Assembly (NCBI GenBank): GCA_005772825.1
Contig: SXIP01000028.1
Location: 1-34,988 of the forward strand
Direction: 5' to 3'
DNA length: 34,988 nucleotides
DNA from: Methylococcaceae bacterium
GTDB lineage: Bacteria > Pseudomonadota > Gammaproteobacteria > Methylococcales > Methylomonadaceae
A program made the position numbers and the translations under genes. This document shows, piece by piece, positions 4,002 to 26,117 of the stretch (the first letter of the stretch is position 1; each line of letters opens with the position of its first letter). Under the pieces are notes generated by a model that made no database searches, was not told the origin of the DNA, and was given only the letters and a program-made list of their open reading frames with translations.

Positions 4002-4101
4002 CAATATTCATTCTTTATTCAGAGGGGTTTGTTATTATATGCCCCATTCGGTGCATTTCATGTGTCGAAGTACCACCCGGCTCAACCGCCTGAAGCGGAT
4101 T

Positions 4102-4155: not shown

Positions 4156-4803
4156 ATGAAAAAAATCACTAAATCACCTTTAGCCGCGGCAATGGGCGTG
4201 GCTGTTATTTCAACTTTCGCAGCAACCGGCGTTAATGCTGAAGCGAATCCATTCGGCATGACCGAACTAACTACCGGTTATATGCAAGTCGCCGAAGCCA
4301 AACAAGCCGGCGAAATGGCTTGCGGCGCATCCATGGGTATGGCCAAACCTAAAGCGGCTGAAGGCGCTTGCGCAGGCAACAAGCCATCGACAGCAACAAA
4401 AGCCGCCACTACGGCGACAACATCAAAAGCGGCTGAAGGCAAATGCGGCGATATGATGGATGGCGACAAAATGAAAAAAGGCATGGAAGCGGCTTGCGGC
4501 GCAATGATGAAAGGCAAAGAAGGCGCGTGCGGCGAAATGATGAAGGGCGAAAGCATGAAGGGCAAGGAAGGCGCGTGCGGCGCCGGCATGAAAATGCCTG
4601 AAGGCAAATGCGGCGACCAATGCGGCGAAGGCATGAAAGCTTGTCCTGACCTGAAAAATAAAGAAGGATCTTGCGGTGCATCGATGAAAGGTTGTGGTGA
4701 AGGCATGCAAGGTTGCGGCGAAATGATGAAAGGTAAAGAAGGCGCTTGTGCGGCAAATAAAGGCACTGCAGCACCGACTACCGCTGCCCCGGCTAAAAAA
4801 TAG
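4156..4803 (+). CDS. hvfA: HvfA-type RiPP metallophore precursor, exported
   Basis: The 215-residue precursor peptide starts with a Sec signal (1-28, cut likely after GVNA). A linker follows, then a low-complexity Gly/Lys/Met/Cys region with 13 cysteines: C56, 72, 97, 114, 125, 141, 152, 156, 163, 173, 180, 187 and 198. Five lie in EGxCG motifs (94-98, 122-126, 138-142, 149-153, 170-174), two of them the canonical EGKCG. In Haemophilus HvfA, the MNIO enzyme HvfB with HvfC converts EGKCG cysteines to copper-binding oxazolone/thioamide groups. The same enzyme pair lies downstream. I chose the ATG at 4156 because the signal peptide begins there. Its role as a periplasmic copper binder is inferred from the family. 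The protein is Met-rich as well, which also fits copper. Confidence 0.9.
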   Translation: MKKITKSPLAAAMGVAVISTFAATGVNAEANPFGMTELTTGYMQVAEAKQAGEMACGASMGMAKPKAAEGACAGNKPSTATKAATTATTSKAAEGKCGDMMDGDKMKKGMEAACGAMMKGKEGACGEMMKGESMKGKEGACGAGMKMPEGKCGDQCGEGMKACPDLKNKEGSCGASMKGCGEGMQGCGEMMKGKEGACAANKGTAAPTTAAPAKK

Positions 4804-4825
4804 ACTGAGCCCATTCAGGCTAATC

Positions 4826-4948
4826 TCCCGGCTTAACGGCTCACTGCCATTAAGTTAAGAAAGAAAGCTCCCTCTCCCTCCGGGAGAGGGTTGGGGAGAG
4901 GGGACTCAATCGCTTAATTTAATGGCAAGTGAGCTTAGCGGTTGGGAG
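4826..4948. repeat. Hairpin-rich repeat element between hvfA and hvfB
   Basis: Imperfect inverted repeat arms (4839-4859 and 4913-4934, both reading GCTCACT..GCCATTAA..TTAAG from the outside, one indel and one mismatch) flank a 36-base core at 4868-4903. The core hairpin pairs CCCTCTCCC (4870-4878) with GGGAGAGGG (4882-4890). A second GGGGAGAGGG (4893-4902) offers a competing partner. The core recurs in inverted orientation at 26082-26117, so this is a dispersed MITE/REP-like element. It lies inside the hvf operon and could terminate or stabilise transcripts between precursor and enzyme genes. Confidence 0.75.
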
Positions 4949-4987
4949 CACATTGCGGCAAAACACACATCATGAACACCACACGCC

Positions 4988-5839
4988 ATGAAAACAACCC
5001 AACACCTGGTTCATGGCGCGGGCTTGGGCCTGCGTCGCTCCTTTTTATCCGAGATTACCGAATCACCACCTAAAGATGTCGGCTTTTACGAGGTCGCGCC
5101 AGAAAACTGGATGACCATCGGCGGCAAGCTCGGCAAGCAATTCCGCGCGATGACAGAGCGCTTTGATTTTGTCTGTCACGGTTTATCGCTATCACTGGGC
5201 AGCACCGACCCGCTGGATGAAGAATTCGTGCAGGGCGTCAAACAGTTCATGCGCGATCATGACATGCGGTTTTACAGCGAACACCTCAGTTATTGCAGCA
5301 AAGACGGGCATTTGTACGATCTGATGCCGATCCCGTTTACCTCGGAAGCGGTGCTTCATGTGGCGGCACGCATCAGGCGCGTACAAGACATCCTGGAACA
5401 AAAAATAGCGCTTGAAAACGTCTCCTATTACGCCGCGCCGGGCCAGGAAATGTCCGAGATCGATTTTTTTAATGCCGTTGTAGCCGAAGCCGATTGCGAT
5501 GTACTCATCGACATTAATAATATTTACGTCAACAGCGTTAATCACGGTTACGATGCCGAGGCTTTTTTAAAAACCATTCCCGCACATCGCATTGCTTATG
5601 CGCATATTGCCGGTCATTACGTTGAAGCCGACGATTTCCTGGTTGATACGCATGGCGCCGAAATTATTGATCCGGTCTGGCAATTGCTCGATAAGGCTTA
5701 CGAGCTTTATGGCGTGTTTCCGACCCTGTTGGAACGTGATTTTAATATCCCCGATATGGCTGAATTATTGCGGGAAGTGAATACCATCAAAGCAATACAA
5801 AATACCTGGACAACGCATTATGCAAAAAAATCTGCTTGA
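4988..5839 (+). CDS. hvfB: HvfB-type MNIO (DUF692) peptide-modifying enzyme
   Basis: Multinuclear non-heme iron oxidase with a TIM-barrel fold. It is predicted to install oxazolone/thioamide on HvfA cysteines using iron and O2 in the cytoplasm. The 283 residues fit the family. Likely metal ligands stand in the expected order: H64 (CHGLSLSLG), E98/H99 (YSEHLSY), E143/N144 (LENVSYY), D175/N177 (LIDINNIYVNS), H206/H210 (AHIAGH), D220/H222 (DTHG) and E249 (LERD). The start ATG at 4988 lacks a clear ribosome site, and an out-of-frame ATG lies 16 bases upstream. It overlaps hvfC by 20 bases, so the two are coupled. Ligand assignment is by family pattern, not by structure. Confidence 0.93.
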   Translation: MKTTQHLVHGAGLGLRRSFLSEITESPPKDVGFYEVAPENWMTIGGKLGKQFRAMTERFDFVCHGLSLSLGSTDPLDEEFVQGVKQFMRDHDMRFYSEHLSYCSKDGHLYDLMPIPFTSEAVLHVAARIRRVQDILEQKIALENVSYYAAPGQEMSEIDFFNAVVAEADCDVLIDINNIYVNSVNHGYDAEAFLKTIPAHRIAYAHIAGHYVEADDFLVDTHGAEIIDPVWQLLDKAYELYGVFPTLLERDFNIPDMAELLREVNTIKAIQNTWTTHYAKKSA

Positions 5840-6608
5840 AACCGGAGGGAAAGTAGATTTTAGCGCCAAACAACATGAGTTTGCCGCGTACATCAGAGAT
5901 CCTGAAAACAACCCGGCCCCGGATGATGTCAATGAACAACGCATGGCGATGTATAGAGAGCTGTTTTTCAATAATATCAACAGTTTTTTATCGAGTAATT
6001 TCCCGGTATTAAGGGCGATATTGAATGATGCTCAGTGGTTTGAGCTCGCCCAGGATTTTTTTGCACGACACCGCAGCGTTTCCCCGCATTTTTCCGCGAT
6101 TCCTGAAGAGTTCCTCGACTACCTGCAAAACGAGCATGATCATTCGGGGGATTTCCCTTTTATGCTCGAACTCGCCCATTATGAATGGGTGGAAATGGCT
6201 TTATCCATTGCCAAAGAAGAATTGGTCATCAACGATCGGGTTATCGATAAGGCTATCGACGATCTGCTGACAAAAAATATCCGCTTATCCCCGTTAGCCT
6301 GGCCGCTGGCTTATCAATACCCGGTCCAGAAAATATCGCCGGATTATCTGCCTGCCGAGCCCCCCGGGCAACCTACTTGTCTGATCGTTTATCGCAACAG
6401 CGATGACGTGGTTAATTTTATTGAAATTACGCCGATTACTTACCGCTTGCTGGAAATACTCCAGGAACATGAAAGCCTGTTGACTGAAACTTGCTTGCAG
6501 CAGATCGCTGATGAATCAAAGCACCCCAATCCTGAATTGATTATCTCGGGTGGTTTGCAGATTTTGAAGGAACTTGCCGAAAAAAATATTATTTCGGTGG
6601 CTGACTGA
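5820..6608 (+). CDS. hvfC: HvfC-type DUF2063 partner protein
   Basis: Partner of the MNIO enzyme. In related systems it recognises the precursor leader and presents it to HvfB. The 262 residues have an N-terminal DUF2063 domain (about 16-110) including QHEFAAYIRDPE, the RMAMYRELFFNNI helix and LSSNFPVLRAIL. A C-terminal domain follows (about 125-255), ending in ISGGLQILKELAEKNIIS. No signal peptide or TM segment is seen. Its start lies 20 bases inside hvfB, typical for these pairs. The usual DoxX-like fourth gene (hvfD) does not follow. The next gene is convergent. Confidence 0.92.
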   Translation: MQKNLLETGGKVDFSAKQHEFAAYIRDPENNPAPDDVNEQRMAMYRELFFNNINSFLSSNFPVLRAILNDAQWFELAQDFFARHRSVSPHFSAIPEEFLDYLQNEHDHSGDFPFMLELAHYEWVEMALSIAKEELVINDRVIDKAIDDLLTKNIRLSPLAWPLAYQYPVQKISPDYLPAEPPGQPTCLIVYRNSDDVVNFIEITPITYRLLEILQEHESLLTETCLQQIADESKHPNPELIISGGLQILKELAEKNIISVAD

Positions 6609-6654: not shown

Positions 6655-7113
6655 TTACTGCTGACGCGAAAAATCAGGTTCTCTGGGCGGTACCTTTTCT
6701 TGCAAACAATGGTAACCCGCGCTTTCATACTTAATTCTTAAGGACTGCGGATTTTCATGCTCGGTCATGAATTTTTCAGCTTCCTGGGCCGTTAAATCCT
6801 TCATCATATATTTGGCGATACACATGCAGGATTCGGAAATGCGTTTTTCATCATTTTCTTTATTGACGGAATTCTTCAGCTCCCTGTCAACACATTGAGC
6901 TGAAAAATCATGTTCGAATTTGTGTTTTTGAACATCGGTCACTTCAACTTCGTGAGAATGATCAAATGGATTATGCACGACTTTAGCCGGTGCCGTTTTC
7001 TCCGCTTTATCATCCGAACAGCCGATAACAGCCAGCGCAATAACAATGCCGGTCAAGGCGGCAAACAGGGCATTCTTTGTAATAATAGATTTTTTAATAA
7101 TGCGTGTTTTCAT
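6655..7113 (-). CDS. Small lipoprotein with His and Cys clusters, unknown function
   Basis: I do not recognise the family. The 152-residue product has an N-terminal hydrophobic helix (about 14-31) ending in LAVIGC, a lipobox with Cys32 for lipidation. Ser33 at +2 suggests outer-membrane sorting by the Lol rule. The mature part has a His-containing stretch NPFDHSHEVEV (H52, H54, plus H47, H64, H68) and cysteines C74, C96, C98 and C136, the middle two as CMC. Residues 88-136 look helical. It converges on hvfC across a 46-base gap, so it is not in that operon. The metal-type residues may mean metal binding, but that is inference. The ribosome site is weak. Confidence 0.75.
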   Translation of the reverse strand: MKTRIIKKSIITKNALFAALTGIVIALAVIGCSDDKAEKTAPAKVVHNPFDHSHEVEVTDVQKHKFEHDFSAQCVDRELKNSVNKENDEKRISESCMCIAKYMMKDLTAQEAEKFMTEHENPQSLRIKYESAGYHCLQEKVPPREPDFSRQQ

Positions 7114-9518: not shown

Positions 9519-11096
9519 ATGATACACAAACAGGCTCAGTATTATCTTAGTCATTTTAAACACGATGCGCCAGCCGGCATTGTGGTGTTTCTGGTCGCCT
9601 TGCCGCTTTGTCTGGGTATTGCGCTGGCTTCAGGCGCGCCTTTGTTTTCCGGGTTGATAGCAGGGTTGGTCGGCGGACTGATCGTGTCCTGGTTAAGCGG
9701 TTCGCAACTGAGTGTTTCAGGCCCCGCCGCCGGTCTTACCGTGATTGTTTTAAACGCCATTGAAACGCTCGGCAGCTTTCAGGGCTTGCTGGTTGCCTGT
9801 ATTTTGGCAGGAATCATGCAGCTCGCGTTTGGTTATTTAAGGGCGGGTATTATCGGTGCATTTTTCCCAGCCGCTGTGATTAAAGGCATGTTGGCGGCTA
9901 TCGGTTTGATTTTGATTATCAAACAAATTCCTCACGCCACCGGCTACGATACCAGCTATGAAGGCGATGAAAGTTATATGCAGGAAACGGCGCAATCCAG
10001 TTTCTTTGAATTATTCGATGCGCTTAACGGCGTTTCCGCGGGTGCGGTTGTGATCAGCAGCGCGGCCTTGTTGATTTTAATTATTTGGGAAACATCCTGG
10101 ATTAAAAAACAGCGGCTATTGAAATTGATCCCCGGTCCCTTAATCGCAGTGGTTTGGGGTGTCGGCTACAATTTAGCCGCCGCACGGTTTATACCTGCCT
10201 GGGCTGTCAGCGAAAAACACCTGGTCAAGTTACCGGTACCGGAAAATGTCGACAGTTTTTTCAATAACTTTATGTTTCCTGACTTTAATTACCTGGGTAA
10301 TCCTCAGGTTTATATGATCGCTGTCACGATTGCCATTATCGCCAGCCTGGAAACCCTGTTAAGCCTGGAAGCCGTCGACAAGCTGGATCCTTTAAAGCGC
10401 ATCGCGCCAACCAATCGGGAGCTGAAAGCGCAGGGTATAGGCAATATTCTCAGCGGCATGTTGGGCGGCTTGCCGATTACCGCCGTAATTGTGCGTAGCG
10501 CCGCCAACATCAATGCGGGCGGTAAAACCAGTCTGTCCTGCTTTATTCATGGTTTGTGCTTACTGGTCAGTGTGATGTTTTTTGCGCACTTATTAAACTA
10601 TATTCCGCTCGCCTGTCTATCGGCCATTCTTTTGCATACCGGCTATAAACTCGCCAAGCCGACCCTGTTTAAAGAATACTACCGGAAAGGCATGAGTCAA
10701 TTTCTGCCGTTTATCATTACGATAGCGGCGATACTGGCGACGGATTTATTGAAAGGCATGGCTATCGGCTTGGTTTTCGGTTTGTTTTTCGTGATCAAGG
10801 CCAATTACAACGCCGCTATTACGCTGACCCAAAATGGCTCTCATTACCTGCTGTCTTTTAATAAGGATGTTTCGTTTTTGAATAAAGCCCTGTTAAGAAA
10901 ATTTATTTTGCACATCAAGGAGAACAGCAGCGTAACCATTGATGCCAGCAAAGCCCAGTTCATCGATCACGATATTCTGGAGACCATTGAAGATTTTTTG
11001 TCCGGCGCACCGGACGACAATATTACAGTCGACGTTATCGATCTGTACGGTAAAGAAAAAATGAAGAAACACGATGCCATCGTGGTATTGAAATAA
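9519..11096 (+). CDS. SulP-family anion transporter, likely bicarbonate
   Basis: Inner-membrane SLC26/SulP transporter of 525 residues. The transmembrane domain (about 17-420) carries the family segments GIVVFLVALPLCLGIALASG, SQLSVSGPAAGLTVIV and LETLLSLEAVDKLDP. The C-terminal part (about 440-525) is a STAS-like domain with VTIDASKAQFIDHDILE. Family members carry sulfate or bicarbonate. The carbonic anhydrase gene 68 bases downstream makes bicarbonate the likelier substrate. The start ATG has AAAGGAG about eight bases upstream. It may be BicA-like in energetics (Na+ coupled), but nothing in the sequence settles that. Confidence 0.9.
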   Translation: MIHKQAQYYLSHFKHDAPAGIVVFLVALPLCLGIALASGAPLFSGLIAGLVGGLIVSWLSGSQLSVSGPAAGLTVIVLNAIETLGSFQGLLVACILAGIMQLAFGYLRAGIIGAFFPAAVIKGMLAAIGLILIIKQIPHATGYDTSYEGDESYMQETAQSSFFELFDALNGVSAGAVVISSAALLILIIWETSWIKKQRLLKLIPGPLIAVVWGVGYNLAAARFIPAWAVSEKHLVKLPVPENVDSFFNNFMFPDFNYLGNPQVYMIAVTIAIIASLETLLSLEAVDKLDPLKRIAPTNRELKAQGIGNILSGMLGGLPITAVIVRSAANINAGGKTSLSCFIHGLCLLVSVMFFAHLLNYIPLACLSAILLHTGYKLAKPTLFKEYYRKGMSQFLPFIITIAAILATDLLKGMAIGLVFGLFFVIKANYNAAITLTQNGSHYLLSFNKDVSFLNKALLRKFILHIKENSSVTIDASKAQFIDHDILETIEDFLSGAPDDNITVDVIDLYGKEKMKKHDAIVVLK

Positions 11097-11164
11097 ACAC
11101 AGACAGCCGTTTCCAATTGAACCGGATACGCGCTTCCATTTAATTAACCCTTAAATTTAATGCC

Positions 11165-11854
11165 ATGAAAACACAAACTAAAGAAATGCAAAATAACTTG
11201 ACGCCTGAACAAGCGATAGAAATCCTCAAGAAAGGTAATGACCGCTTTATCAATAACCTGAAAGCCAATCGCAATTTACTCGAGCAAGTCAATGAAACCT
11301 CTGATGGTCAGCATCCTTTCGCATTCATTTTGAGTTGCATCGATTCCAGGACGTCTGCGGAATTGATATTCGACCAAGGTTTGGGTGACATTTTCAGTTG
11401 CCGTATCGCCGGTAACATTTTGAATGAAGACATACTGGGCAGTATGGAATTCGCCTGCAAAGTCGCAGGCGCTAAAGTCATCGTTGTTTTGGGTCACACC
11501 AAATGCGGCGCTATCAAGGGCGCCTGCGACAATGTCAAGCTGGGCAATCTGACCGCACTGCTTGATAAAATCAAGCCTGCCATCGATGCAGAACGCACTA
11601 CGCTCAGCAACCGCAATGCCGCTAATTCGGTATTTGTCGAAAATGTCGCCACGCTCAATGTCAAGCTGGTGATGAGGCAAATTGCGGAACACAGTCCGGT
11701 TCTGTATGAAATGCTGGAAAAAGGCGAAATTGCACTGATTAGCGGCATGTATGATGTCGAGACGGGCTATGTTGATTTTCATCGTTCACGTACATCGGTG
11801 CAGCCTCATGGACATAAATGGGACCTCGTTGAGCAATGCGCCGACGTTGCGTAA
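11165..11854 (+). CDS. Beta-class carbonic anhydrase
   Basis: Zinc enzyme interconverting CO2 and bicarbonate, cytoplasmic (no signal peptide). The 229 residues have the beta-class signature: C58-x-D60-S-R62 in LSCIDSRTSAE, and H111-x2-C114 in VLGHTKCGAIKGAC. Cys58, His111 and Cys114 are the zinc ligands, and Asp60/Arg62 the conserved dyad. It lies directly after the SulP gene, so the pair likely couples bicarbonate transport to CO2 hydration or release. The start at 11165 lacks a clear ribosome site. A downstream in-frame ATG at codon 8 is an alternative. Confidence 0.95.
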   Translation: MKTQTKEMQNNLTPEQAIEILKKGNDRFINNLKANRNLLEQVNETSDGQHPFAFILSCIDSRTSAELIFDQGLGDIFSCRIAGNILNEDILGSMEFACKVAGAKVIVVLGHTKCGAIKGACDNVKLGNLTALLDKIKPAIDAERTTLSNRNAANSVFVENVATLNVKLVMRQIAEHSPVLYEMLEKGEIALISGMYDVETGYVDFHRSRTSVQPHGHKWDLVEQCADVA

Positions 11855-11959
11855 TACAGCGATTCTCTTAATTAGAGAGTCTGACAATTTTGTTGATCGC
11901 TTCATTTTCATTTATGCCCCTGAGTGTACACCGAAGCAGCTACTTCCTTTAGGTCACGC

Positions 11960-12150
11960 ATAGATCGCCCCTTCTCCTTGAGTACCCTCAAGGTATACAG
12001 GGAGAACACTGGGATGATGAGATAAACAAGATTTTTCTCTTTAGTCCACCCCTCTGGGCAACCACCCCTGTGTTGCCAGAAGCGCCGGCTGTCGGCGCTT
12101 TACCGACCGGCCTGCATTTATGCAGGCTCGGTTAGGGAGGGCTTTTTTCC
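11960..12150 (+). ncRNA. Hairpin-rich intergenic stretch, possible structured RNA
   Basis: The 350-base gap 11855-12204 has no convincing gene. It holds four successive stems: CTTGAG/CTCAAG (11977-11982 with 11987-11992, itself inside TTCTC/GAGAA 11972-11976 with 12002-12006), GGCAAC/GTTGCC (12057-12062 with 12072-12077), AGCGCCG/CGGCGCT (12081-12087 with 12093-12099), and a long stem 12102-12132 made of ACCGA/TCGGT enclosing GCCTGCAT/ATGCAGGC. A six-T run follows at 12143-12148. It may be a small RNA, a leader of the next gene, a terminator of the carbonic anhydrase gene or a cluster of repeat hairpins. I recognise no known RNA family. Confidence 0.35.
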
Positions 12151-12204
12151 TTAACTGAAAACAGGGGCGCCGGAACGTGGAATCAATGCAGGTGGTATGT
12201 ATCA

Positions 12205-12663
12205 ATGGCGGAATATATGATATTGAAACTGAAAAAGTTAAACTTTATTGATAAGTTACAAGATAATCTTAGCTCTTTTATCTGGATACTGTTGATTCTG
12301 TTCAGTATTCTAAACCTGGATGTACTGCTTCATTCGTTGCTGACACTCGTTCATATGGCCTTCGAATGGATTGAGTTGGGACTTGAAAAATTAATAGAAC
12401 ATCTTTTTCATACCAGCCGCAAACAAAGCCAGGTTATTGTTTTCTATTTGTTGCTCTCTATCGGTTCATACCTGTTGTATTGCCTGTGTCGTGGGGTGCC
12501 CGATCTTTACCGACATTATAAAAGCCGCTTGATGACGGTTTGCCTGCGCTACAAAGCATCAGCCTGGCTTTATTGGCAAGACCAGGCGCCCATAGGTAAG
12601 CTCAAACTGATAGCAGCCGGGCTGTTGTCTGTTAAATTACTGTACTTTTTGATCTTCAGTTGA
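12205..12663 (+). CDS. Small three-TM membrane protein, unknown
   Basis: Not recognised. The 152 residues contain three predicted TM helices (about 25-50, 76-95, 134-151). Between the last two is a basic cytoplasmic-type loop with YRHYKSRLMTVCLRYKASAW. The long helix-rich link (51-73) holds EWIELGLEKLIEHLFH, amphipathic in appearance. The start has AGGTGG about ten bases upstream, and a second in-frame ATG lies at codon 5. It lies between the sulP-carbonic anhydrase pair and the DAB operon on the same strand, so it may be an accessory of that carbon-uptake island. That is inference from position only. Confidence 0.7.
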   Translation: MAEYMILKLKKLNFIDKLQDNLSSFIWILLILFSILNLDVLLHSLLTLVHMAFEWIELGLEKLIEHLFHTSRKQSQVIVFYLLLSIGSYLLYCLCRGVPDLYRHYKSRLMTVCLRYKASAWLYWQDQAPIGKLKLIAAGLLSVKLLYFLIFS

Positions 12664-12701
12664 CCGATATAAAGACAGCGGTAAATAAAACTGCATTTGT
12701 A

Positions 12702-12727
12702 CGCCCCTCGCCCTCTGGAGAGGGGCG
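12702..12727. repeat. GC-rich hairpin in the gap before the DAB operon
   Basis: CGCCCCTC (12702-12709) pairs with GAGGGGCG (12720-12727) across a ten-base loop. The composition resembles the CCCTCTCCC-type repeats at 4868 and 26082, but it is not a close copy. It may end the preceding gene's transcript. Confidence 0.5.
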
Positions 12728-12797
12728 GAATGGCGCTTTACCTATTCTGCCGAGTATACGTAACGGAGATTTAAACGCTGAAAGTAAAGACTTCTTT

Positions 12798-12825
12798 TTG
12801 CCAAATCCTGACCTTAACGTACAAT
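12798..12825 (+). promoter_or_regulatory. Sigma70 promoter of the DAB operon
   Basis: TTGCCA (12798-12803) and TACAAT (12820-12825) are separated by 16 bases, each 5/6 to consensus. They lie 36 bases before the first gene of the five-gene operon. Confidence 0.65.
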
Positions 12826-12861
12826 TTCCCATCTAAATCGCAAAACCAACCACTTTAAATC

Positions 12862-14334
12862 ATGGGAATATTGAGTCTGTTACTCTGGACGCCGGCTGCC
12901 GGGGCCTTGCTCCTGGCTTTTACACCGGGCCGGAATATCAAGATAATCCGTTACATCGCCAACCTGTTTACCACGCTTGCCTTTTTACTTAGCTGCGGCT
13001 TGGTCGGACTTTATGACCAACATGACGCCGCCTTGCAATTTGGCGAATATTTTCCCCTTAATCCCGTACTTGGCAGCGCCTATGCGTTGGGTGTGGACGG
13101 TTTGTCGATGCCGATGCTGGTATTGGCGACGCTGCTGACATCGATTGCCTTGCTGGCTTCTTTTACCATTGCCCATAGCGTCAAGGGCTATCATATCTGC
13201 ATCCTGCTGCTTGAGTTCGGCATGTTGGGCGTCTTCCTGGCTCAGGATTGGGCGCTGTTCTATATTTTCTGGGAAGTGACCTTAATCCCGCTGTTTTTCC
13301 TGATCGGCCGTTGGGGCGGCAAGCGTCGGCATGCGGCAAGCCTTAATTTTGTGCTTTATACAATGGGCGGCTCGGTTTTTATGCTGATGAGTTTGCTGGC
13401 TGTCAGCCAGTATGACTTTCAACACGGCGGTTCGTTAATGAGCTCGATGCACCAGGCGGCAAAAGACATGCCCTTGTATGAGCAGGTGTTGGTGCTGTTG
13501 GGTTTTTTGCTGGGCTTCGGCGTGAAAATGCCGATTTTCCCCTTGCACGGTTGGTTACCGCTGGCCCATGTCGAAGCGCCCAGCCCGGTCAGTATCCTGC
13601 TGTCCGGCATTTTACTGAAAATGGGCGCCTACGGATTGTTAAGAGCCGTCGTGATGCTGCCTGAAGCGGCGCAATTGTTGCAACCGTTACTAGTTTTTCT
13701 GGCTTTGTTCGGCATGCTGTACGGCGGCTTGCTGGCCTGGCGGCAAAGCGATCTTAAGTCGATGGTAGCTTATTCTTCGCTCAGTCACATGGGGGTGGTG
13801 TTACTGGGCATTGCCACGCTGAATGAGGTCGGAATTAATGGCGCTGTCTTGCAAATGACCGCACACGGCCTGATTGCCGGTGCGCTGTTCCTGTTGGTCG
13901 GCCTGCTTTATGAACGCACCCATACCCGTAATATCCAGGATTACAGTTCGCTGATCCAGGTCATGCCGCGTTTTGCCCTGTTTATGACCATCACGCTGCT
14001 GGCGGCGATGAGCCTGCCCGGTTCGATCGGCTTTATTGCCGAACTGCATGCGCTGATTGGTTGTTTCCAGCAATGGGGCTGGCTATGGCTGTTTTTCAGT
14101 CTGAGCATGTTGATTAGCGCCGTCTATGCAACACGCACTATCGGGCTGTTATTTACCGGTCAGGTGCAAGCAAAAATGCGTGATATTGAAGACTTGAGAA
14201 CGCCTGAATTATTGGCGGTCAGCCTGCTGGTCGGAGGCATTGTGCTGTTCGGCTTGCTGCCTGCGCCGCTGATTGACTTATCCACGGCAACCGTCAAGGA
14301 CATGCATAATTTAATCAGGCTACGGGTTTTATAG
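12862..14334 (+). CDS. NuoM-like proton-translocating subunit 1 of the DAB operon
   Basis: Integral membrane protein of 490 residues, homologous to complex I subunit M and Mrp-type antiporters. The ion-path residues are all present: E138 in FWEVTLIP (TM5), K222 in [14 protein letters not shown] (TM7), K253 in [11 protein letters not shown] (TM8) and E394 in GFIAEL (TM12). It cannot be the respiratory NuoM, because no other complex I genes are near and the next gene is dabA. It likely moves protons or sodium to drive inorganic-carbon uptake. The stop lies five bases before dabA. The start follows the promoter at 12798-12825, with no strong ribosome site. Confidence 0.88.
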
Positions 14335-14339
14335 GATTC

Positions 14340-17300
14340 ATGATGCAAAAATCATTGTTAAAACCCAGGCGTCAGCGCTTGCCGGAAACTCACGCAAAAG
14401 TCGAAAACCGTCACCGCGAACAGGTCATAACAGCGCTGCATCACCTCGATCATGTTCTGCCGGGACAGGCGCCGCTGCTGGATTTCGTCCATCATAATAC
14501 CTTGCACGGGTTTCAGCACTTACCGTTTGAAGAAGCGCTGGCTGCCTTTGAAGCATTAACCGGCATTTGTGCGTATTACCCTGAAACCCGGAACCGCGAA
14601 TTTTATCGGCAGGGCCGTATTAACGACAGCGACCTTAATGCCGCCTTTGCACATAATCCGGCCTTGCAGGCGGAGCAGATCGTTTTAAGCGTAAAAGATA
14701 AAGACATCATGCGCCGCGATATTTACCGGATTGCGCTGTTATATGACCTGCAAGCCGTTAGCGCGGATCAATTGAATTGGCAAATAGAAGAATTGAAGGC
14801 GCTGGATCTTGTCCAGGCCGATGTACCCGAATCCGTGCGCCCGTTATTATCAGCAGACGCAAACGATCAGGGCGGTGCAATCAAACAGCTTTGGGAAAGC
14901 ATTTTAACCGGACTCGAATTAGAGCAAAGCTACCTGCATCCTGAGGCTTTACTGGGCGGGCGTCCACCGGAGCCGCACGAAAACGAGTTGGATCTCAACC
15001 GGCCTGACGCCAGTATATCGACACATAAGTATACCCAGCACCAGGCCGGGGCGGCGCTTGATGAGCTATTGAGGCAGGTAGGGGAACACATCAGCCTGCG
15101 CGGTTTTGTGCTGGCCTTGAGCGGAATCGACATTCTGGATTCGGTGCGTCCTCAGTTGATACGCACTTGCGCATCGGCGCTGGATGAAGGCATTGCGCCC
15201 TGGCAACTGCCTGAACGCAGCCGTTCCGGCCTGTATGCCGCCTGGCGGGCAACGGCCGTTTATGACGCCAACCCGTTTCTGCATGAGTTGCCCGACTGGC
15301 AACAGATTATTTCGGAACTGCCGGAAAATGCCGTTGACGCCATTATCCTACAACTCATCCACCTGGATATACCGGAAGCGCAATGGGATGCTTATTTGCA
15401 ACGACTGGCATTGGAACTACCGGGCTGGTCGGGATTGATCAACTGGCGACAACAGCACCCGAACTACCGCGCCGACAATGACGCTGCGCCGAAACTGGCT
15501 GATTATCTGGCCGTTCGACTGACCCTGGACCGGCTGTGGCTGAATCAGGTATGCCGCGACCTCTGGAAAATTGAAGCGAAACTGGGCGCATTGCAAAGCT
15601 ATTTCCGTAAAAACCTGTCCGAATTCATGGTGCGTAGCGAACTGTACCAGGGCAAGCTGCCGGAATACCTGACCCACAAAGCAGAATCCCTGATTATTCG
15701 CGCCGGGTCGGAGCGTTATAACCGCCCCGACTGGCAATCCCTCGCCGACCTGATACGAATCTGGCAGCTCAATCCGACCACCGAAAACCATCAACAGCAC
15801 GCGCCGGAAAACAGCGGCTGGCGTTTGTTCCGCTTATGCCAACATCTGGGACTCAATGCCGCATGCGTGCAAATGCTGAACAAAACCGATTTACAGGCGC
15901 TGCTGGCGGTGCTGGATGAATTTACCGTCACCGAACGCAGTAAAATCTGGCTTTATGCTTATGAACGGCATTACCGGGACGATTTGTTTCAAGCGTTGCG
16001 CGCCAACCATCAGCGAGGCCGCTGGGCCAAACGCGATAAACGTCCCGAAGCGCAAATCATATTCTGCATGGATGACCGCGAAGAAGGTTTTCGCCGTCAC
16101 CTGGAAGAACTCAATCCCGCCATCGAAACATTGGGAGCTGCGGGTTTTTTCGGCGTTGCGATGAATTATAAAGGCCTGGATGACAGTCATGTCACGCCGC
16201 TGTGTCCGGTCGTGGTGACGCCGGCTCATGAAGTCCGGGAAATACCGCGAACCGGCAGCGAACACAGTGTGTCCCGACATAGTGTCGGGCGCAAGCTGAA
16301 TAAAAGCGTGAGTTATCTGTTCAATCATCTGCTGCGCCGCAATCTGTTGTTATCGCATCCTGTTATCGATGCGTTTGCGCCATTGACGTTTATGGGCCTG
16401 CTCGGGAAGTCGCTGTTGCCTTTGTCGCAACAACGTTTGGCGGCAGGTGTCCGTCAACTGGTCTCACCTACGGTTAACTCGCAATTGCTGTTTGCTGCCA
16501 AAGACGACACGAAGGCAGCTACACCGGAACAGCCACGGCTGGGTTTTACCGATAGCGAACAGGCCGATCGGGTGGCGGGCTTGTTGCGCAATACCGGCCT
16601 GACCTACGGTTTTGCACCGCTGGTCGTATTGATGGGACATGGTTCCATTAGCCAGAACAACCCACACATGGCGGCTTACGATTGCGGCGCTTGCAGCGGA
16701 CGCCACGGCGGGCCGAATGCCAGAGTATTTGCAGCGATGGTCAATCGACCGGAAATACGTAAGCTGTTGGCGGAACGCGGTATTATTATCCCGGATGATA
16801 CCTGGTTTATCGGTGCCGAACACAACACCTGTAATGAAGCCATCAGTTGGTATGATGACTGTGACATTCCGACCCGGCGTTTGGCGGGCTTAACCAAATT
16901 ACAACAGGAATTACGGCACGCCCAGTTAATGTCCGCACACGAGCGCTGTCGCAGACTTGCGTCTGCGCCACGCAAGCCGACGCCACAGCAGGCTTTGGCG
17001 CATATCGAAGAACGCGCCGCTGATTTCTCCCAGGCCAGACCTGAACTCGGTCATGCGACTAACGCTGCCGCTGTAATCGGACGGCGATCGCTGACTCAGG
17101 GCGCATTTTTCGACCGCCGCGTATTTTTGATTTCTTATGATCCGACTCAAGACCCGGAAGGCAAGATACTGGAAGGCATCCTGCTTGCGGTCGGCCCCGT
17201 CGGTGCGGGTATTAACCTGGAATACTATTTTTCGACGGTTAATAATGACCGCTTCGGTTGCGGTACCAAAGTGCCGCATAATATCACCGGTTTTTTCGGG

Positions 17301-17654
17301 ATTATGGAAGGGACCGCCAGCGATTTACGTACCGGTTTGCCGCAGCAAATGGTGGAAATTCACGAAGCGATGCGTTTACAAATCCTGGTTGAGGCAAAAA
17401 CAGCCGTATTGGAACGCATCTATACCGAACAGGAAAGCTTGCGTGAATTGATAGCCGGCGGCTGGGTCCACTTGAGCACAAAAGACCCGGACAGCGGCGA
17501 TATTTTTGTCTTCGAACGCGGTATTGGTTTTGTGCCCTGGCATGCCGAAGTCCAAGAGCTGACGATTTACGCAAATTCCCCGGACTGTTACCGCGATCAG
17601 ACCTTGCCTGTCCCGCCGGCACTGATTAAGCAACCTGAGTTATTGGAGCTTTAG
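14340..17654 (+). CDS. dabA: DabA (DUF2309), inorganic carbon uptake subunit
   Basis: DabA is a zinc protein with a beta-carbonic-anhydrase-like site. With DabB it forms a membrane complex that traps CO2 as bicarbonate in the cytoplasm, powered by cation flow. Active-site residues can be placed: C576 and D578 in [12 protein letters not shown]767 in LMGHGS and C782 in YDCGACSG. The 15-residue H-to-C spacing equals that recalled for Halothiobacillus DabA2. At 1104 residues it is a long form, clearly longer than the roughly 830-residue DabA2. The extra length is mainly before the active site. An ATG pair at 14340/14343 leaves the exact start open. AGGA upstream favours the second. Confidence 0.95.
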
Positions 17655-17658
17655 AATT

Positions 17659-19221
17659 ATGGATGCCTTAGTCGTTCTCATCCCGTTATTGCCTTTTGTC
17701 GCCGCCGCGTTGATCGGCATTGGTCATTTCTCTGCTTTCCTCACCGGTGAAGCCTACGAAAACACGACGGCGGATATCGCCGGCGGTGCGATTATTCTCT
17801 CCTGTATGATGGCTTTAACACTGGTGGGCGCGGATTTACTGGGCTTTAATACCGGAACATTCAGTGTCGGGCAGTGGCTCGGCAGTGATACGCTGAACAT
17901 CCGCGTGAATTTCATCACGACAGGATTCAGTGTCCGGCTGGCTGCTTTATTTACAGTGCTGCTGCTTATCGTCAGCCGGTTTTCCATTAATTACATGCAC
18001 AGGGAAGCCGGGTATCATCGGTTCTTTTTTATCCTGAGCCTGTTTTCCTCGGCCATGTTGTTCCTGGTATTGTCCGGCAATGCCGTCGGGACCTTCGTCG
18101 GCTGGGAAATTGCCGGCCTTTGTTCATACTTGTTAATAGGTTATTCATACCATCGTCCCGTTGCCGGGCATAATGCAACGCGTGTATTTATCACCAATCG
18201 CATCGGCGACGCCGGCTTTATTGTCGGCATAGGCCTCAGTTACGCCTGGGTCGATACCGTCAACTGGAGTCAATTGAATGTAGCGGCGACAGAGCTGACT
18301 TCCGGCGAGGCGACCGGAATTGCGCTGTGCTTTACCGTGGCCGCTTTTGCAAAATCAGCCCAATTGCCTTTTACACCATGGCTGGCCAGAGCGATGGAAG
18401 GACCGACGCCGTCCAGCGCCGTTTTTTACGGCGCGGTCATGGTGCATGCTGGCGTCTATCTGGTCTGCCTGTTGCAGCCGATTTTTGAACAATCGCTGCT
18501 TGCCCGGATTGTGCTTGCCGTCGCGGGTTTGTCAACAGCGATATACAGCGTGATCGTCGGCCTGACGCAATCCGATGTTAAAAGTTCGCTGACTTTTGCC
18601 ACTTCGGGTCAATTGGGCCTGATGTTCCTGGCCTGCGGACTGGGATTTTGGCAGCTGGCCGCCTGGCATCTTTGTGCCCATGCCGTTGTGCGCGGCTTCC
18701 AGTTATTAACGGCGCCCTCGTTGATGCACAATGTCCAGGCCATTCCGGTAAAACCGGTTAGTCCGTCAATTGCCGGTCTGCGTTGGGCTTATATCGCCTC
18801 TTTACAGCGCTTCTGGCTCGATGAAATTACCGACTGGGGGCTGGTAAAACCGGTTAATTGTGTGGCGCACGACTTGAGCTACTTTGACGATAATATTGTT
18901 GATCGACTCATCGGTATCCCCGCGCCCGCACTCAGTACCCTGTCAGCACTGGCGCAACGGGAAGAAAAAAGGATCGGCGCCCGGCTGGATAATGACATCG
19001 ATGAATTTGCTCACGGCAGCGGCGTTGCCGGTAAGCTCACTGAATGGGCGGCTGCCGTCACGCACTGGTTTGAAGACCGTTTTGTGCTGCGCGGTATCGG
19101 CAAGGATTCTATCGATTTCGGCAGGCGATTGGGATACGCCGCTAATAAATTCGAAAGCCTGATTTTAAGGCCGCGTTACCTGGTTCTATTTGTTTGCATT
19201 ACCTTATTGGTTGCATTTTGA
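17659..19221 (+). CDS. dabB: DabB, NuoL-like membrane subunit
   Basis: Membrane partner of DabA, 520 residues, of the NuoL/MrpA antiporter family. The TM5 Glu is E150 (FVGWEIAGLCSYLLIGY) and the TM7 Lys is K232 (AFAKSAQLPFTPWLARAMEGP). H263 lies in MVHAGVYLV (TM8). The core breaks off near 345, where a Lys seen in NuoL appears as Arg (HAVVRGFQLL). The protein then jumps to a NuoL-type tail (FWLDEITDW onward) and a last TM helix (about 502-520), so it lacks the distal helices of NuoL. It starts four bases after dabA, with GGAG ten bases upstream of its ATG. The next gene starts seven bases after its stop. Confidence 0.92.
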   Translation: MDALVVLIPLLPFVAAALIGIGHFSAFLTGEAYENTTADIAGGAIILSCMMALTLVGADLLGFNTGTFSVGQWLGSDTLNIRVNFITTGFSVRLAALFTVLLLIVSRFSINYMHREAGYHRFFFILSLFSSAMLFLVLSGNAVGTFVGWEIAGLCSYLLIGYSYHRPVAGHNATRVFITNRIGDAGFIVGIGLSYAWVDTVNWSQLNVAATELTSGEATGIALCFTVAAFAKSAQLPFTPWLARAMEGPTPSSAVFYGAVMVHAGVYLVCLLQPIFEQSLLARIVLAVAGLSTAIYSVIVGLTQSDVKSSLTFATSGQLGLMFLACGLGFWQLAAWHLCAHAVVRGFQLLTAPSLMHNVQAIPVKPVSPSIAGLRWAYIASLQRFWLDEITDWGLVKPVNCVAHDLSYFDDNIVDRLIGIPAPALSTLSALAQREEKRIGARLDNDIDEFAHGSGVAGKLTEWAAAVTHWFEDRFVLRGIGKDSIDFGRRLGYAANKFESLILRPRYLVLFVCITLLVAF

Positions 19222-19228
19222 GGCGTTA

Positions 19229-20794
19229 ATGAATACCCCTGTTTCCATATGGTCGGAGTCTGCTGCCTTTCCTTTGCTATCCGTGCTGACGCTGGTTCCG
19301 CTCGTGGCGATGACAGCCATCTTGTGGTCACGCACCCAGACGGCGGCAATACGCTTCGGCTTTGCCGGTACGCTGATTAATTTAGCGCTTAGCATTTACC
19401 TGCTCGTTGTTTTTGATGCCGGCGCGCCCGGTATCCGTTTGGCGGAAGAGCTGCACTTCGCCGGTTTAAGCTACAGCGTCGGGGTGGACGGCAGCAATAT
19501 CTTATTTATTCCATTAACGGCTGTTTTAACCTTCCTGGCCCTGGTTTATATGCTGATCACTCGGCATGTCAGCGATCGCTTGTTTATTGCCTGTTTGTTA
19601 GGCTACGAAACCGTCCTCATCGGGGCTTTTTCGGCAATGAATATCATGCAATTCTGGCTGTGGTCATTGCTGGAACTGGCGCCGGTGATCCTGTTAACGA
19701 TTCATGCCGGAACCGGACAAGCAAGACGCTGGGTCGTTGCATTGCTGTTGCAATATTGGGGTAGCGGCCTGCTGATGACGCTGGCCGGTTTTCTGTTGCT
19801 CGCCTTCGGGCTGGTCGGTTCTGACCATGACCTGACTTTCGACTGGCTGACATTAAAACTGAACAATGCCTATTTACACGACGAAACCTTGATTTTTATC
19901 CTTCTGTTCTTCGGTTTCGCCATTCGGATGCCGTTATTCCCGTTTCACGGCTGGCTGCCCTTGCTCGCAGAACACGGCACTGTCGCCAGCGCCGCCATTT
20001 TCCTGGTCGGCCTGAAATTGGGTATTTATGCGCTGATCCGTTTTATTTTGCCGATGGTGCCGGGCGTTGCCGAAGAATGGGCCGGGTTTGTGCTGACGCT
20101 GGGATTGATCAGTATTTTTTACGGAGCCTTGCTGGCGCTGATGCAAATCAATATTCGCCGTTTGCTCGCCTTTGCCGTGATCAGCCACACCGGGATGTTG
20201 GTGATCGGCGTGTTCAGTTTTAACGAGTACGGACTGGAAGGCAGCATTTTGCTTTGTATCGCTTACGGCCTTGCGACAGCCGGCATGTTGTTCAGCGTCG
20301 GCCTGATTTATGAACGCACGCGAACCGCTTTTATCCCGCGTCTGGGCGGACTGTTTGACAGCAATTCCACGATCGCATTATTGTTCCTGATTTCCGCGCT
20401 GAGCACGATGGTCATGCCGGGGACACCCGGATTTGACGCCGCGCATTTGCTGATCGAAGGCATTATCGAAGAAGACGGCTGGCTGATCGCCATTGCCATA
20501 TTGATCGGCAACGTGTTAGCCGCCGCTTTCCTGTTGCGGGCGTTTCAACAGGTCTTTATCGCCAGTCCGAAACGATTCCACCAACCCTACAGCAGCACTC
20601 ATCATCCGGTCAGAAAAGAACGCATCATTACCATCGTGATTTGCCTGTTACTAATCGGCACCGGTTTTTACACAACACCGTGGTTGAATTTTATCGACCA
20701 GGAAGTGACGGCGATGGGAGAACTGTTCCCTATACACGGCTCGCAGAAATCCGATACGGCGCCGGGACCTGCCGAAAGTAAACCCCATGACTGA
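19229..20794 (+). CDS. NuoM-like subunit 2 of the DAB operon, key charges altered
   Basis: Membrane protein of 521 residues, related to NuoM. I chose the ATG at 19229 (GAGG five bases upstream, just after the dabB stop) over a TTG at 19190. Compared with its two NuoM-like neighbours, several ion-path residues have changed: the TM5 position reads WS (S146) instead of WE, with a Glu three residues later (E149). The TM7 Lys is Arg (R233, AIRMPLFPFHGWLP). The TM12 Glu is Ala (GFDAA, A405). The TM8 Lys is kept (K263). It may be a structural or modulating subunit rather than an active pump. That is inference from alignment by eye. Confidence 0.85.
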   Translation: MNTPVSIWSESAAFPLLSVLTLVPLVAMTAILWSRTQTAAIRFGFAGTLINLALSIYLLVVFDAGAPGIRLAEELHFAGLSYSVGVDGSNILFIPLTAVLTFLALVYMLITRHVSDRLFIACLLGYETVLIGAFSAMNIMQFWLWSLLELAPVILLTIHAGTGQARRWVVALLLQYWGSGLLMTLAGFLLLAFGLVGSDHDLTFDWLTLKLNNAYLHDETLIFILLFFGFAIRMPLFPFHGWLPLLAEHGTVASAAIFLVGLKLGIYALIRFILPMVPGVAEEWAGFVLTLGLISIFYGALLALMQINIRRLLAFAVISHTGMLVIGVFSFNEYGLEGSILLCIAYGLATAGMLFSVGLIYERTRTAFIPRLGGLFDSNSTIALLFLISALSTMVMPGTPGFDAAHLLIEGIIEEDGWLIAIAILIGNVLAAAFLLRAFQQVFIASPKRFHQPYSSTHHPVRKERIITIVICLLLIGTGFYTTPWLNFIDQEVTAMGELFPIHGSQKSDTAPGPAESKPHD

Positions 20795-22331
20795 TTCAAC
20801 AATGCCTATGCTGAGCCTGATTATTTTATTACCTTTATTGGGCGCGATTGCAACCGGACTATCAGGCAATGCCAGACTGACCAAACAGATTGCCGTATCG
20901 GTTGCCGGTTTGGAACTGGTGCTGACAATGTTTGCCGTCTCGATGTTCAATGCCGATGTCGGCGACTTTCAACTGGTCGAACACTACGCCTGGATACCCA
21001 GTCTGAACATTGAATTTTTCGTCGGTATTGACGGCATTTCTGTGCTGTTTTTGCCGATGTCGGCGCTGTTGACACTGATGGCGATTGTTGCCTCGTGGAA
21101 CTCGATACAACATCTGGGGCGTTTTCATTTTGCCCTGTTGTTGGCGCTGGAAGGCGTTACGATGGGACTATTTTCCGCGCTGGATATGATGTTGTTCTTT
21201 TTTTTCTGGGAACTCACGCTGCCGCCGTTGTTCTTTTTGATCGGTTTATGGGGCATAGGGCCGGAACGGTGCAACGCAGCGACAAAATATATCCTGTTCA
21301 TGCTGTTTGCCGGCGTACCGTTATTATTTGCGATTATCCTGCTGGCGGTTAATCACGCCACCGAAACGGGCGTCAGTATTCCCGAAGGCTTGTCTTTCAA
21401 TTTACCGGTCCTTTTGAAAACGCCGTTGCCGGGCAATCTGCAAGAGATTGTGTTTTTGCTGTTGCTGCTGGGGTTTGCCGTCAAAGCGCCACTGGCGCCA
21501 TTTCATACCTGGTTACCGACGGCGGCCATGGAAGGTCCTGCGCATACAACGGCCTTGTTAACCGGTTTAAAACTGGGCGTTTACGGCATCATACGCTTTA
21601 CCATGCCGTTGGCGCCTTCGGCTGCCGTTGAATACAGTTGGGTGCTCGGTATTCTTGGGGCCGTCACACTGATTTATAGCGCCCTGATAGCACTGCAACA
21701 GACCAATTTGCGGCGCTTGTTGGCTTATGCCGGCGTCAGCCATGTCGGCCTAGTTATCATCGGCATTGCATCATTGAACATGCAAGGTATTCAGGGCGCG
21801 ATTTTTCAATTGCTCAACTTTACCTTGATTGCCGGTTCCCTGATGCTGATCGCAGGTTTTATTCAACAACGCCTGGGCAGTACCGAAGCATTACATCTCG
21901 GCGGGCTGGCCCAGGTCAGCCCCAGACTGACCGGTTTTTATTTTTTATTTATGCTGGCGAGCATGGGCATACCGGGCACGAACGGCTTTCCGGCTGAATT
22001 GTTGTTGATTATCGGTGCCTTGCTGGCCCATCCCAGCCTGGGAATTACCGCGTTGGCAGGAGCCGTGCTCAACGCCGCCTATATGCTGACTTTTACCCGT
22101 CGCGCCTTCCTGGGGCCGGTGACTCAGTCAGGTGTTAACCGGATGCAGGATTTACGCCCGCGGGAATGGGCTTTGCTGTGCATACCTGCGGTATTAATAC
22201 TGGCGTTGGGCTTTTTTCCGAACAACCTGCTTAAAGTCAACCGCTTAAGCGCTGAATTATGGCTGAGCCGCCTGCTGGATCAGCCGGCACTGCAAAGCGA
22301 TGAAATTGCCGGGTTAAGTGTCGTACCTTGA
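20787..22331 (+). CDS. NuoM-like proton-translocating subunit 3 of the DAB operon
   Basis: Membrane protein of 514 residues, the most canonical NuoM-like of the three. E142 lies in FFFWELTLPPLFFLIG, K233 in AVKAPLAPFHTWLPTAAMEG, K262 in GLKLGVYGIIRF and E404 in GFPAELLL. All four ion-path charges are therefore present. Its start overlaps the previous stop by eight bases. It is the last gene of the operon, followed by a strong inverted repeat (22379-22432). Likely role: cation translocation coupled to DabA/DabB. Confidence 0.88.
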   Translation: MTDSTMPMLSLIILLPLLGAIATGLSGNARLTKQIAVSVAGLELVLTMFAVSMFNADVGDFQLVEHYAWIPSLNIEFFVGIDGISVLFLPMSALLTLMAIVASWNSIQHLGRFHFALLLALEGVTMGLFSALDMMLFFFFWELTLPPLFFLIGLWGIGPERCNAATKYILFMLFAGVPLLFAIILLAVNHATETGVSIPEGLSFNLPVLLKTPLPGNLQEIVFLLLLLGFAVKAPLAPFHTWLPTAAMEGPAHTTALLTGLKLGVYGIIRFTMPLAPSAAVEYSWVLGILGAVTLIYSALIALQQTNLRRLLAYAGVSHVGLVIIGIASLNMQGIQGAIFQLLNFTLIAGSLMLIAGFIQQRLGSTEALHLGGLAQVSPRLTGFYFLFMLASMGIPGTNGFPAELLLIIGALLAHPSLGITALAGAVLNAAYMLTFTRRAFLGPVTQSGVNRMQDLRPREWALLCIPAVLILALGFFPNNLLKVNRLSAELWLSRLLDQPALQSDEIAGLSVVP

Positions 22332-22445: not shown

Positions 22446-22865
22446 TTAATTAACATCGATTAACAAACGCTTATCCAATAGCGCCAGCGCCGCTTCAATC
22501 TGCTCAATGCGGCTTTTATGCTTAAGCGACAACAAGCGGTCAACCAGAGTGGGCGCGATGTTCAGCTTTCTGGCCAAGTCGGCCTTGCGGGTTCCGGTAG
22601 CCAACATGGCATTATGCAACGCCACCTTACCGGCAATCAGCACCGGCAGCGCCACACCGGGCCGGCCATTTAATGGGGAGGCCACAGGGATAGGCTTGCG
22701 CGCTTGCATCAAATAAAAAAACGCCGTTTCCAGTGCATCAACGGCATTCAGTAGAGCCTCCTCGTAAGAGTCGCCGACTGAATAAACGGCAGGCACATCA
22801 ATAAACTCAACAATAAACTGATCTGTTTCAATGTCTTGCTCAACAGTGACGGGGTAGTAAAACAT
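22446..22865 (-). CDS. hicB: HicB-family antitoxin
   Basis: Antitoxin of 139 residues. The N-terminal RNase-H-like HicB fold reads MFYYPVTVEQDIETDQFIVEF..VGDSYEEALLNAVDALE. The C-terminal half carries an XRE-type HTH (RKADLARKLNIAPTLVDRLL), which would bind the operon's operator and repress it. I chose the ATG at 22865 because GGAGG lies six bases upstream and the HicB fold begins there. A longer in-frame start at 22976 would run back into hicA. Ten bases separate it from the hicA stop. A full antitoxin gene next to a full toxin suggests an intact, active pair. Confidence 0.92.
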   Translation of the reverse strand: MFYYPVTVEQDIETDQFIVEFIDVPAVYSVGDSYEEALLNAVDALETAFFYLMQARKPIPVASPLNGRPGVALPVLIAGKVALHNAMLATGTRKADLARKLNIAPTLVDRLLSLKHKSRIEQIEAALALLDKRLLIDVN

Positions 22866-22875
22866 AATGCCTCCG

Positions 22876-23052
22876 TTATAAATCCAAATCTTTTTTGATT
22901 TTCTTAACAAGTGGGTCAGGTATTTCTTTAGAACCATGAAAAGGCACAACGGTGGTTTTACCGTTAAATTCAGCATGTAAATGACTGCCTTTACCGGCGC
23001 TGAATTTAACGCCTTGCTTTTCCAGCCACCGTTTAAATTCGCTGTATTTCAT
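22876..23052 (-). CDS. hicA: HicA-family mRNA interferase toxin
   Basis: Small dsRBD-like ribosome-independent mRNA interferase, 58 residues from MKYSEFKRWL. It includes the family motif GKGSHLHAEFNGKTTVVPFHG, with the catalytic His in GSH, and ends KKIKKDLDL. The start ATG at 23052 gives the usual length. The frame is open to 23121, but the extra 23 residues have no HicA character. Toxin-first order with the antitoxin ten bases downstream is normal for HicAB. The operator-promoter lies at 23080-23100. Confidence 0.93.
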   Translation of the reverse strand: MKYSEFKRWLEKQGVKFSAGKGSHLHAEFNGKTTVVPFHGSKEIPDPLVKKIKKDLDL

Positions 23053-26081: not shown

Positions 26082-26117
26082 CCCCTCTCCCGGGCCCTCT
26101 CCCTCAGGGAGAGGGAA
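26082..26117. repeat. Second copy of the CCCTCTCCC repeat core
   Basis: This 36-base core is the inverted counterpart of 4868-4903: CCCCTCTCCC, three variable bases, CCCTCTCCC (26095-26103), three variable bases, then GGGAGAGGG (26107-26115). Apart from the variable triplets and the last base the copies agree. The hairpin arms are perfect. Confidence 0.8.

Follow-up and report, generated by a model that had tools for sequence, protein, structure and literature searches.

Within a 34,988-nucleotide stretch of a Methylococcaceae bacterium genome (contig SXIP01000028.1 of assembly GCA_005772825.1; hereafter the window), we examined a gene block encoding a cysteine-rich precursor peptide (hvfA-like), its MNIO maturase (hvfB) and a DUF2063 partner protein (hvfC). 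Judged by its enzyme, partner and leader sequences, the block is of a known kind (HvfA/oxazolin, or "captophorin"), while the core of its precursor marks it as a lineage variant. We think it likely that this is a methanotroph form of HvfABC, in which HvfBC converts most of the precursor cysteines to 5-thiooxazoles and thereby gives rise to a periplasmic Cu(I) buffer. The source organism is a gammaproteobacterial methanotroph. Methane oxidation makes bacteria of this kind dependent on copper, and the way in which they handle it in the periplasm is not fully known. HvfB was found in 145 of the 151 sampled genomes of the family, covering all 29 genera sampled, and is therefore close to core in this family; a copper-peptide system with an enzyme so distributed is a strong candidate for methanotroph copper handling.

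The coordinates, reading frames and motif counts of an earlier, sequence-only reading of the window proved correct on re-check (Table 1), as did the overlap of hvfB and hvfC, which is exactly 20 bases (5820–5839); the HvfC match starts at the same offset in many relatives. For comparison of the locus we used the 80 closest named MNIO loci, which belong nearly all to Methylococcales (Methylobacter, Methylovulum, Crenothrix, Methylomonas, Methyloprofundus and others). A precursor homologue lies upstream of the MNIO gene in 72 of these loci, HvfC is encoded in 79, and nth, the gene for endonuclease III, is present in 61. These comparisons show that nth-hvfA-hvfB-hvfC is one conserved gene block, and the recurrence of the precursor upstream of the MNIO gene, together with the low dN/dS (ratio of nonsynonymous to synonymous substitution rates) given below, places it far beyond chance. 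A second copy of the precursor was not found in the genome. The earlier reading had also remarked that the usual DoxX-like fourth gene is absent. Indeed none adjoins the block, but this is no peculiarity of it, absence being normal for the lineage; a tblastn search with DoxX of the same genome gave no hit at any of the 80 loci. In the wider published family the DoxX gene is optional, as its clusters are assembled from precursor, MNIO, DUF2063 and DoxX genes in differing combinations (PMC12452194).

The assignment to the HvfABC type, as first suggested, is right for both the enzyme and the partner, which lie above their equivalog cut-offs. The MNIO passes the HvfB model NF003818 with 442.3 bits (cut-off 360) and fails the models for BufB (271 bits, cut-off 310) and MbnB (55.3 bits, cut-off 325), and its candidate metal ligands (His, Asp, Glu and Asn) are invariant in 96 sequences. 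The partner passes the HvfC model NF050145 with 316 bits (cut-off 142). The nearest solved structures are 3bww for the MNIO and 3dee (NGO1945) for the partner. For the precursor, the same assignment is supported by shared leader, gene order and homology. The leader pattern NPFxxxxLxxGY is common to methanotroph precursors and to 18 precursors of other Gammaproteobacteria (its PF was partly a selection criterion), and Gly41 and Tyr42 are invariant in 63 homologues. In the tree of HvfB, the window falls with a Methylovulum clade (97/91 support), and most members of this clade share the plan of 13 cysteines.

What distinguishes the precursor is its core. A recount gave 13 cysteines, five of them in EGxCG motifs, as had been described: canonical EGKCG occurs twice (Cys97 and Cys152), isolated rather than paired, EGACG twice (Cys125 and Cys141) and EGSCG once (Cys173). 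The further cysteines stand in EMACG (56), EGACA (72), EAACG (114), DQCGE (156), KACPD (163), KGCGE (180), QGCGE (187) and EGACA (198). "Mixed-motif" is therefore a fitting description, with two isolated EGKCG sites and eleven variants, and the window precursor lacks the repeated, paired EGKCG motifs of the HvfABC kind. "Unusually large" is not: relatives reach 302 residues, and 215 residues is mid-sized against the published range of 31–506 residues, the longest published precursor having 58 cysteines (PMC12452194). The precursor has no match among sequences of the PDB at E up to 10 and none in Pfam, hence none to DUF2282, the criterion for bufferin 1. AlphaFold2, run with 18 homologues, gave no confident fold (predicted local distance difference test, pLDDT, 43; predicted template modelling score 0.18). 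In four relatives (L034, L038, L051 and L052) a core module of the form CGxMM...CGAMMKGKEGACG is present two or three times, which suggests that the precursor grows by whole modules.

The eight cysteines outside the EGxCG motifs had been described as standing in degenerate contexts. They are not in decay. Across 18 close homologues, every aligned cysteine position holds either Cys or an indel, the sole substitution being Ala at Cys141, a site that is absent from 10 of the 18. TGC and TGT codons alternate at all positions, and dN/dS of the precursor is 0.08–0.22 at dS 0.9–1.6. The precursor is thus shown by its sequence to be under purifying selection, and the supposedly degenerate cysteines are kept as well as the canonical ones. 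One relative (L016, 3536–3901) has a precursor with signal peptide and leader that retains two cysteines and is apparently eroding.

The scarcity of Lys before cysteine is a trait of the lineage. The median fraction of core cysteines preceded by Lys is 0.15 in 71 methanotroph precursors and 1.0 in the 18 precursors of other Gammaproteobacteria, a set gathered by a single similarity search rather than by a census; an adjacent MNIO is visible within the 1.5-kb flank at 13 of these 18 loci. Met makes up 11% of the core (median) in the methanotroph precursors versus 3% in the others. Lys-Cys is missing from the core entirely in 26 of the 71. Cultured relatives with the locus include Methylovulum miyakonense (L041), Methylobacter tundripaludum (L003) and Methylotuvimicrobium buryatense 5G (L072), the last with a short precursor that is richer in Lys. 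We claim no single origin for the Lys-poor state: the labels form clusters in the HvfB tree, yet they require 11 changes across three groups, and the tree has 28 weak forks. We offer tentatively, as a possibility rather than an expectation, that HvfA-type metallophores of gammaproteobacterial methanotrophs form a near-universal branch that gave up Lys-Cys, and that its MNIO converts isolated Ala/Ser-Cys-Gly/Ala sites, separated by Met-rich spacers, to thiooxazoles, yielding a long periplasmic Cu(I) polymer that may supply or protect particulate methane monooxygenase. No published account of the system or of its variant in gammaproteobacterial methanotrophs was found in the literature, subscription papers lying mostly outside the reach of the search. 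The absence of Lys in nature is in addition a test of substrate recognition by MNIO enzymes, a question so far probed mainly with engineered peptides.

With regard to chemistry, the oxazolone/thioamide product expected by the sequence-only reading has been superseded, as the product of HvfBC was reassigned to 5-thiooxazole (PMC12668002; PMC13419390). HvfBC makes 5-thiooxazoles and acts poorly on HvfA that lacks its signal peptide (PMC13419390), so the export signal probably doubles as a leader. FonBC, a related pair, accepts Ala at the +1 position (EAKCAEGKCA) as well as Gly, and Pro blocks the reaction. The earlier suggestion that perhaps only some sites are modified can be sharpened in these terms: 12 of the 13 cysteines have Gly or Ala at +1, as FonBC requires, and Cys163 does not. 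At Cys163 the cysteine is kept in relatives while the +1 residue varies (P, D, A, N or S). Because the +1 residue is unsuitable and the cysteine is nevertheless conserved, we predict that Cys163 is a free thiol.

In the mechanism that we propose, HvfC would bind the signal peptide or leader of the unexported precursor and present it to the di-iron centre of HvfB. HvfB would then carry out a four-electron oxidation (−4 Da) of one cysteine after another, giving 5-thiooxazoles. Most of the 12 cysteines with Gly or Ala at +1 would be modified, with or without a preceding Lys, leaving Cys163 as the free thiol. Sec would subsequently export the chain, with removal of residues 1–28. The mature chain may be flexible and rich in Met and thiooxazoles, binding several Cu(I) ions in the periplasm, where it would buffer or store copper.

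A role as copper buffer or store is favoured, by inference, by the two pmoB genes of the genome, by the lack of a match to a DUF326-type copper storage protein in this genome (77% complete) and by the copper binding of characterised relatives. Several points weigh against this reading and its chemistry. At 77% completeness the missing DUF326 match is weak evidence. FonBC left a peptide with a single EGKCG repeat unmodified in vitro, and the sites here lie 4–25 residues apart. The NCBIfam HvfA models do not recognise the window precursor: NF050137 and NF050188 each match 34 of 63 methanotroph homologues, and NF050188 matches 7 of the 18 closest, while for the window precursor a scan at E up to 1 returned no family. 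As current profile models miss it, this branch is probably under-annotated. Finally, the Microbulbifer mmr proteins went undetected whether or not copper had been added (PMC12538549), and induction therefore need not be by copper.

The last point also bears on the alternative that fares best, namely that the chemistry is as proposed and the role is extracellular copper acquisition, or defence against another metal or oxidative stress. We regard this as distinctly less probable, at something like one chance among several. Copper stress did not bring the Microbulbifer homologues to detection, Antoine et al. have proposed that the family acts in stress by other metals (PMC12452194), and methanotrophs are known for copper-acquiring methanobactins (PMC3621798). 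However, the characterised members bind copper, no transporter or receptor gene adjoins the block, and a mature chain of 187 residues is unlike a small secreted chalkophore.

It is unlikely, and somewhat more so, that modification is confined to the canonical Lys-Cys sites (Cys97, Cys152 and perhaps a few more), with the remaining cysteines left as free thiols, which would either coordinate copper jointly with Met or be joined in disulfides. In characterised members the prevailing motif is Lys-Cys; FonBC modified certain variants of the motif just once and left a single isolated repeat unmodified, and Cys163 has been conserved even though its +1 residue is unsuitable. Nevertheless, the 26 methanotroph precursors without any core Lys-Cys keep MNIO and partner, and FonBC accepts Ala at −1 (EAACGEGACG).

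Very improbable is an essentially unmodified, Csp-like Cys/Met-rich copper storage protein that merely adjoins the enzymes, since the 13 cysteines, the helix-like spacing of 4/7/7/11 in module 2 and the Met-rich spacers which speak for it are set against a gene order that, together with the leader of MNIO substrates, is held at 72 of the 80 loci, the many Gly residues and the pLDDT of 43, and DUF326 is absent both from the matches of 63 precursors at E up to 1 and from the genome. The Csp-like helical bundle was itself rejected as a candidate fold, with no DUF326 match and a fold prediction that was unusable.

Upstream of the precursor gene, after a conserved -10-like element, lies a palindrome that could be either a 5' mRNA stem-loop or an operator. 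In an alignment of 23 sequences, both partners have changed in 7 of its 10 pairs, and it scores higher for covariation than any of 500 shuffles or any slid control, although relatedness inflates such scores; the copy in the window needs G-U wobbles to pair in full. Rfam gave sub-threshold matches only (MIR396 and tsr1), which we treated as chance. The core of the repeat between hvfA and hvfB has 27 copies in the genome, one of them at 26095–26115 of the window. Downstream of the block, on the opposite strand (6655–7113), is a gene for a putative small lipoprotein (AVIGC lipobox) without a Pfam match, which occurs near the block in 28 of the 80 loci. Farther along, the window encodes a SulP-type permease, a carbonic anhydrase and an inorganic carbon transporter of the DabA type, the last accompanied by four Mrp-antiporter-like genes (9519–22331), and a protein with a HicB-like antitoxin domain on the minus strand (22446–22976). 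Among the compared loci, a clade that includes Methyloprofundus and a Bathymodiolus symbiont (L053, L056, L066, L069 and L078) keeps HvfB and HvfC with no recognisable precursor within the fetched flank.

Table 1. Features of the hvfABC block and its upstream region, in window coordinates.
Feature	Position	Strand	Basis or remark
Extended -10-like promoter element TGTTATTAT	4030..4038	+	Conserved as TGATATGAT-like in relatives
Palindrome, possible 5' stem-loop TTCGGTGCATTTCATGTGTCGAA	4047..4069	+	Covariation
hvfA-like precursor, 215 residues, 13 Cys	4156..4803	+	Open reading frame, homologue alignment, dN/dS
Sec signal peptide, residues 1-28, predicted cleavage after VNA	4156..4239	+	Judged by eye; A28 invariant in 63 homologues
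Conserved leader NPFGMTELTTGYMQVA	4246..4293	+	Common to EGKCG precursors of other Gammaproteobacteria
Core module 1: Cys97, 114, 125, 141; spacing 17-11-16	4444..4578	+	Regular spacing
Core module 2: Cys152, 156, 163, 173, 180, 187, 198; spacing 4-7-10-7-7-11	4609..4749	+	Regular spacing
Repeat between hvfA and hvfB, like a miniature inverted-repeat transposable element or repetitive extragenic palindrome (MITE/REP-like)	4840..4935		Inverted repeat; core CCCTCTCCCTCNGGGAGAGGG
hvfB, MNIO maturase, 283 residues	4988..5839	+	PF05114 354 bits; NF003818 442 bits; invariant candidate ligands
hvfC, DUF2063/NGO1945_C RRE partner, 262 residues	5820..6608	+	Profile matches, structure homologue

The closest characterised counterpart is the HvfABC/oxazolin system of Haemophilus influenzae, which shares the Sec signal peptide, the HvfB MNIO, the HvfC partner and Cys-Gly motifs in the core. 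HvfA of H. influenzae has its 6 Cys in three AEGKCGEGKCG motifs, and its operon includes the DoxX-like HvfX (PMC13419390), whereas the window precursor has 13 cysteines, two of them preceded by Lys, spaced rather than paired in a Met-rich chain and with no DoxX nearby. The captophorins fontiphorin (FonABC) and gonophorin (NgoABC) likewise combine an MNIO with a PME1/DUF2063 partner and EGKCG-type repeats; their products contain 5-thiooxazole and bind copper (PMC12668002), as is predicted here. Their own precursors carry EGKCG repeats; EGACG and Cys-Ala were tested with FonBC only as engineered peptides, whereas here they are natural. Bulbicupramide, from the mmrABC genes of Microbulbifer, has a similar three-gene A-B-C cluster, a conserved leader and a variable number of cysteines, but its 5–8 cysteines are embedded in EGKCG cassettes (PMC12538549). 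The published Buf_EGKCG/oxazolin family (Antoine et al., 2025; PMC12452194) includes this block and is similar in its long multi-Cys precursors and varied gene combinations, though no Methylo- name appears in the main text of that paper. An EGKCG precursor with an EF-hand-like segment at another of our loci (L098, 1495–1998) recalls the published Buf_EGKCG/EF-hand fusions. A second, putatively bufferin-like cluster in the same genome (L002, 1101–3573) encodes, one after another, a short precursor that contains Cys, an MNIO, its partner and DoxX; it follows the same precursor-MNIO-partner logic with a different precursor and an adjacent DoxX. Methanobactin (MbnABC), a copper peptide of methanotrophs, is also made by MNIO chemistry on cysteine; however, MbnABC yields a small chalkophore with oxazolone-thioamide groups, and in the block described here the partner is a DUF2063 protein, not MbnC.
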